Source: Microcaldota archaeon (GTDB taxonomy: Archaea; Micrarchaeota; Micrarchaeia; Norongarragalinales; Norongarragalinaceae). From it: a stretch of 44,863 nt of DNA. The notes under the pieces were generated by a model. That model ran no database searches and had not been told where the DNA came from. It was given only the letters and a program-made list of their open reading frames with translations. The translations under genes and the position numbers were made by a program. Positions 28,319 through 40,341 of the stretch are shown in pieces. Location of the stretch: NCBI GenBank assembly GCA_016188965.1, contig JACPGT010000009.1, forward strand, positions 1-44,863, written 5' to 3'. The number at the start of each line of letters is the position of its first letter. Position 1 is the stretch's first letter.

Positions 28319-28500
28319 AGTATAAAAAGCCGCTGACGGGCAGAGACGCGTTGGACCGGATATTAGAACGCCTCAAGCAGTAGCAGAGTTTGCCGCAGTG
28401 CCCGGCAAGGCCGGCCTATTCGCCATGAAAACCGCTGACCTTGCCATGACGTCTACGCGCGTTGCCGTACCCGCGGTTTTGCGCGTGCGGCCACTTCACG
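28319..28500 (+). ncRNA. candidate small RNA with its own TATA box
   Basis: AGTATAAAAAG at 28319-28328 is one of the best TATA boxes in the window, yet no convincing gene starts 25-30 bases later. The following 150 bases contain two hairpins: TTGCCG/CGGCAA (28390-28408, 7-base loop) and ACGCGC/GCGCGT (28455-28486, with an inner CCG/CGG pair). The next TATA box (28507) belongs to the ScpB-like gene. A 28-codon frame starting at about 28424 (MKTADLAMTSTR) is an alternative product. I cannot assign an RNA family. Confidence 0.35.
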
Positions 28501-39934: not shown

Positions 39935-39962
39935 AACCCCGGCAAGTCAGGGGACTAAAGCC

Positions 39963-40145
39963 AATAAAAAGCCGAGGCGGCAGTAAAACTGATGCTTCCC
40001 GTCTTTAGCAACCGGCTTGAACCGCACGCGCCAACCATTCAAGCCAGAAGAAAGACAGTAAAGCACACGGAGTTTGCGCACGTGGCCGGCAGGCCCGTGC
40101 GTTATGCTCAAAAAGGAAATTGCCGCCGATTGCAGGAATCGGCGG
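39963..40145 (+). ncRNA. candidate structured RNA upstream of tRNA-Lys
   Basis: AATAAAAA at 39963-39970 is a TATA box predicting a start near 39990, but no gene follows. Three hairpins do. The first is compound: GCTT (39994-39997)/AAGC (40061-40064), GTCTTT (40001-40006)/AAAGAC (40051-40056) and GGCTTGAA (40014-40021)/TTCAAGCC (40038-40045), with asymmetric internal loops. The second is CGCACG-T-GGCC/GGCC-CGTGCG (40077-40101). The third is CCGCCGATT/AATCGGCGG (40123-40145), 12 bases before tRNA-Lys. This is either an independent RNA or a long structured tRNA-Lys precursor leader. No known family recognised. Confidence 0.5.
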
Positions 40146-40157
40146 TTTCGCTCAAAA

Positions 40158-40231
40158 GGGCCCATAACTCAGCTTGGCAGAGTATCTGGCTTTTAACCAG
40201 AGAGTCGGGGGTTCAAATCCCCCTGGGCCCG
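40158..40231 (+). tRNA. trnK: tRNA-Lys(UUU)
   Basis: Acceptor GGGCCCA (40158-40164) pairs with TGGGCCC (40224-40230); the discriminator is G40231. The anticodon arm is TCTGG-CTTTTAA-CCAGA with anticodon TTT. The T-arm GGGGG-TTCAAAT-CCCCC is perfect. No intron and no encoded CCA. It would be charged by the class I LysRS at 32797, and its A37 is a t6A site, the product of the Sua5/Kae1/Bud32 pathway encoded downstream. Confidence 0.96.
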
Positions 40232-40241
40232 CTCTTAGCAA

Positions 40242-40270
40242 AGTCGCTGGACCTGCCGGCCACAGCGACT
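40242..40270 (+). other. hairpin in the tRNA-Lys trailer
   Basis: AGTCGCTG (40242-40249) pairs perfectly with CAGCGACT (40263-40270), beginning 11 bases after the tRNA. It may aid 3' processing or termination. Confidence 0.45.
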
Positions 40271-40341
40271 AATTCCGCTACCGCTTGAGACTTTCTTCTG
40301 GCATGAAAAGCCGATAAATAAGCCAAATACGAAATGATTGC

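Follow-up and report, generated by a model that had tools for sequence, protein, structure and literature searches.

What occupies the densely structured interval between the adenylate kinase gene (adk) and tRNA-Lys in this archaeal genome, and does it act as RNA or as DNA? The window, by which we mean the whole 44,863-nt stretch analyzed, is contig C11 of the Candidatus Micrarchaeota genome G000; gene order around the interval is eIF2-gamma, adk, the interval, tRNA-Lys(UUU), a PIN-domain protein and Rpb7. A first-pass annotation had read the interval as a single three-hairpin RNA preceded by a TATA box at 39963 and perhaps cut free of the co-transcribed tRNA by RNase P. The TATA-like sequence AATAAAAA (39963-39970) does lie there and, together with its flank AAAGCC, is identical in G002, the closest relative of G000; TATA-like sequences near tRNA-Lys also occur in some other family members, and we treat the element as a putative promoter. 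All three hairpins were likewise found where they had been placed, ahead of tRNA-Lys. The features of the locus are listed here, with scores from the two covariance models (R1 and R2) introduced below.

39957-39970, plus strand: putative BRE/TATA of the tRNA-Lys transcript (AAAGCCAATAAAAA), identical at 14 of 14 positions at the orthologous place in G002
39988-40059, plus strand: hairpin 1, compound 4+6+8 bp (ACTG/CAGT + GTCTTT/AAAGAC + GGCTTGAA/TTCAAGCC), its two inner stems in the MFE fold; outside the repeat family
40067-40113, plus strand: repeat unit 1 (hairpin 2, GCGCACG.T.GGCC / GGCC.CGTGCGT at 40076-40102), with foot ACGGAGTTT, 7-bp stem and 4-bp upper stem, loop GGCA and foot TATGCTCAAAA; R1 65.3 bits, R2 61.0 bits
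40115-40157, plus strand: repeat unit 2 (hairpin 3, GCCGCCGATT-GCAGG-AATCGGCGGT at 40122-40146), with a 10-bp stem (40122-40131/40137-40146), then TTC GCTC AAAA, ending at tRNA position +1; copies at C1:116943 and C1:254016
40158-40232, plus strand: tRNA-Lys, anticodon TTT (ARAGORN; Rfam RF00005 at 68.8 bits)
40232-40278, minus strand: repeat unit 3, inverted, abutting the 3' end of tRNA-Lys; R1 61.4 bits, R2 53.2 bits; also a training copy

Folding of the interval (223 nt) gave a z score of -2.71, with 2 of 200 shuffles equally stable, and a second, smaller shuffle sample gave -3.7; one of 101 other stretches of the window had a z at or below -2.71. The interval thus holds an excess of structure, though a moderate one, and to that extent the impression of structure beyond chance was justified. 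Stronger evidence than the fold excess is that hairpins 2 and 3 belong to a repeat family. Hairpin 1, the largest structure that had been named, has no second copy in a DNA search of G000, and G002 does not retain its stems. The reading of the three hairpins as one RNA gene is not supported. A covariance-model search of the sense strand against Rfam 15, the comparison with RNA families that the annotation had proposed, returned nothing but the tRNA.

Hairpins 2 and 3 are copies of a dispersed repeat

Hairpins 2 and 3 each represent one copy of a dispersed DNA repeat, about 45-47 nt long, that is specific to this lineage and carries no gene. Its units consist of a foot RCGGAGTTTG, a variable stem, a loop that is often CGGCAG, and a second foot TTTGCTCAAAA. 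Hairpin 3 recurs at C1:116943 as 36 identical nucleotides (TTGCCGCCGATTGCAGGAATCGGCGGTTTCGCTCAA) immediately ahead of a tRNA 5'-end copy, and in near-identical form at C1:254016 before a tRNA-like remnant. Other tRNA genes show the same arrangement with different stems (foot GGAGTTTG, stem, loop GGCAG, foot TTTGCTCAAAA, tRNA), and tRNA-Lys of the window itself is preceded by two units and followed by an inverted one, the latter with an orthologue in G002. The family is apparently undescribed; searches of the open-access literature found no description of it. Elsewhere in the window, at 28383-28429, lies a decayed-looking unit (GCAGAGTTTGCCGCAGTGCCCGGCAAGGCC) with a weak model match (E 1.6).

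Model R1 was built from 7 copies and R2 from 16. R1 matched 14 sites in G000, 3 in G001, 7 in G002 and 5 in G008, and R2 matched 13, 3, 8 and 14, respectively; G001 and G008 are the other unit-bearing relatives, and the two models together define 15 distinct units in G000. Clear R2 matches were confined to these four of the 301 genomes of the class, with one borderline match each in two further genomes of the class. Scores of training copies are inflated by construction, and the score of unit 1 is to be expected because both models were built with it; the independent evidence for the family comes from its other, untrained copies and from their abutment to landmarks. The bare motif GCTCAAAARG is not enriched in the genome (14 occurrences versus 33 for the reversed control), and it therefore counts only together with a hairpin and a landmark. 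A simple scan for a hairpin, 3 nt and GCTC separated units from background in G008 only and failed in G000, hence the need for covariance models.

Unit-type stems covary across copies. In the 16-row alignment, whose counts are not of independent events because the copies are related, 97% of cells were paired, double-change cells numbered 31 against a shuffled mean of 8.8, and the covariation score was 0.82 against 0.28 in shuffles, a signal that was lost on sliding by 1-3 columns. On the two counting measures, of pairs or of pair types, this alignment did not exceed shuffles; a 7-row, 11-pair alignment did. Covariation among copies of a repeat does not prove that they are RNA genes. Among the five inner variable pairs there were 78 Watson-Crick cells, 2 unpaired cells and no G-T cell at all, and since RNA helices normally tolerate G-U, such strict complementarity points to DNA.

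Landmarks, arrays and turnover

Where do the units sit? Fourteen of the 15 distinct G000 units abut a tRNA end (on either side), a copy or remnant of a tRNA end, another unit or a promoter box, one box among these 14 being degenerate and judged by eye. The fifteenth lies within a 23S rRNA gene match (G000:C4:31740-31784; locus L301), possibly in an intron. Abutment is exact: the GCTC of the unit's 3' foot lies 6-10 nt from the first base of the landmark, whether that is tRNA position +1, a tRNA 3' end (with the unit inverted) or a promoter box. Units occur both ways round relative to transcription, and also upstream of promoters.

The box, CACCGGCCAGC, is found 20 times in G000 versus 0 times for its reversed control, and in most of the copies we read it stands upstream of a TATA-like sequence. 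G001, G002 and G008 contain 9, 10 and 10 boxes, respectively, and again no reversed control. The box is mostly followed by (T/A)nCC, with the TATA-like sequence about 13 nt further on, and it is a probable regulon motif.

In G008, a genome from another genus of the family, tandem units recur every 44-47 nt with differing stems: a probable tRNA gene has four in front of it, a box has three, and the 16S-23S spacer holds several before tRNA-Ala. Some G008 units are nested within the loop of another unit. Presence also varies between species. In G001 no unit separates adk from tRNA-Lys, both of which are present, and G002 has units on both sides of tRNA-Lys; one G000 box (L234) carries a unit that is absent from its probable G002 orthologue (L264, identified as such by the sequence downstream). 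The unit core at another orthologous box shows 27/30 identity, with a compensatory change from C-G to T-A, next to an upstream flank that is much less alike, which hints at selection in place. Presence or absence between species together with this conserved core indicates both turnover and some constraint.

Probable mobility and the competing explanations

The array in the window thus consists of copies of a non-coding, hairpin-forming dispersed DNA repeat of one Micrarchaeota family, and on this evidence we think it probable that the repeat is mobile. Units may be copied to new landmarks, added in tandem beside an existing unit or inserted into another unit's loop, and they are best read as non-autonomous mobile palindromes. 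A stem that is variable yet well paired, between constant feet, suggests that a trans-acting enzyme may recognize the unit as a folded single DNA strand, as for integron attC sites or REP elements. Because their position is downstream of the TATA-like sequence and upstream of tRNA-Lys, the units of the array are probably passengers, transcribed passively in a pre-tRNA leader of about 165 nt that RNase P should remove.

Which enzyme might mobilize them? Neither a Y1 transposase (TnpA; PF01797) nor Cas1 (PF01867) is present in the four unit-bearing assemblies, which are 71-90% complete, and we set both aside as mobilizers; we also found no target-site duplication beside the units. A tyrosine recombinase of about 400 aa, located at G000:C1:32577 in this genome, is shared by the four unit-bearing genomes and G004, and 6 other family members lack it. 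It is XerA-like but far below family cut-offs, with 41.7 bits versus 265 for integrase_gron. Its correlation with the units is suggestive but makes a weak lead, since the genomes are few and related, and kinship and genome size are confounding factors: G004 has the recombinase and no unit that we could find, and in G008 no unit was found on the recombinase contig. A separate, 218-aa tyrosine recombinase is encoded at L003:1668-2324 (G000:C1:254183-254839), where a hairpin-3-type unit and a tRNA remnant lie about 130 nt upstream.

The units resemble several known systems and coincide with none of those compared. Like REP, BIME and REPIN palindromes, which are GTAG- and CGTC-tagged (PMC3733652), they are short palindromes repeated in intergenic DNA (13-14 model matches in G000, up to 14 in G008) with constant feet and tandem arrangement, and are probably non-autonomous. 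Unlike these, they have variable, compensated stems, exact abutment to tRNA ends or promoter boxes, and an archaeal host; their number falls far short of the many copies typical of REPs, none of 16 units bears a GTAG or CGTC tag, and the RAYT/Y1 transposase of the GTAG class is the PF01797 enzyme that the incomplete unit-bearing assemblies lack. Integron attC sites and CALINs, including those of archaeal integrons (PMC9668308), are also hairpin sites of variable sequence and kept folding that stand in arrays. Their likeness ends where the units stand contiguously, at a period of 44-47 nt with no gene cassettes between, and where the tyrosine recombinase of these genomes falls short of the integrase_gron cut-off. 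The R boxes of attC sites have the consensus R'' RYYYAAC and R' GTTRRRY; they are found at the feet of none of the 16 units, on either strand. IS200/IS605 ends share a subterminal hairpin followed by a short fixed end, GCTCAAA in the units, which we take to resemble the TCAA right-end cleavage site; unlike miniature elements of that group, the units form tandem and nested arrays of bare hairpins, in genomes where no TnpA was detected. Casposons and CRISPR adaptation offer array growth beside a fixed landmark and the tRNA end as a target, but the units differ in the missing Cas1 and in having no target duplication beside them.

More speculatively, the units could belong to a new archaeal recombination system, in which bare hairpin cassettes of about 45 nt with changeable stems would be read as folded single-stranded DNA and added serially beside tRNA ends or promoter boxes, much like a cargo-less integron or a CRISPR array; we put this forward tentatively. 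Few small mobile elements have been described in DPANN archaea, whose genomes are small, and the family raises the question of which enzyme would recognize a hairpin with a largely unconstrained stem sequence.

A rather unlikely alternative is that the units are, or have become, host boundary elements, DNA hairpins or protein-binding sites spread by copying and kept by selection at the edges of tRNA genes and promoters, which they might, for instance, insulate from read-through, from supercoiling or from the second insertion family described below. Exact abutment to functional landmarks would fit such elements, as would the conserved, compensated unit core at the orthologous promoter box amid diverged flanks and the several orthologous tRNAs that keep units in both G000 and G002. 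However, the majority of tRNAs and boxes have no unit, tRNA-Lys has none in G001 and the wider family, and in G002 an insert that duplicates the tRNA end has entered between unit and tRNA, so that the unit was no barrier to that insertion.

The view first proposed, of an unknown functional RNA that RNase P would release from the tRNA transcript, now appears very improbable, even though a conserved TATA-like sequence lies upstream, hairpins stand directly before the tRNA and unit stems covary. Because units also occur inverted 3' of this and other tRNAs, and upstream of the TATA at boxes, they share no common transcript or strand, and the lack of G-T among the inner variable pairs, the poor conservation of hairpin 1, whose stems G002 does not share, and the lack of an Rfam family speak against it as well. 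An independent ncRNA gene, which would keep a constant strand relative to its promoter or transcript, is not supported, on the same two features of orientation and position; with both orientations and sites upstream of promoters, a mobile palindrome acting at the DNA level fits better than an RNA gene. Ordinary intergenic hairpins, that is, an adk terminator plus chance structure, can practically be dismissed: hairpin 3, in the gap downstream of adk, does have a strong GC-rich stem with TTT behind it, but only three or four T follow the stem, and dispersed copies of the family abutting many unrelated loci contradict this explanation.

Besides the likely mobile repeat, a second family of inserts lies at tRNA ends. 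These are about 80-230 bp long and consist of GC-rich nested palindromes with ACGGTCGCC-like starts and GCGAATCAAAA-like ends. On one side of each stands the intact tRNA and on the other a 13-26 bp copy of its 5' or 3' end. They were found at 19 of 116 scanned tRNA ends versus 0 in a mirrored control, with examples in tRNA flanks of G000, G001 and G002 (L036, L038, L041, L045, L052, L056, L061; L006:1583-1682). The window has no such insert on the 3' side of tRNA-Lys, where G002 has one. This second family has the appearance of a mobile element that targets tRNAs and duplicates its target.
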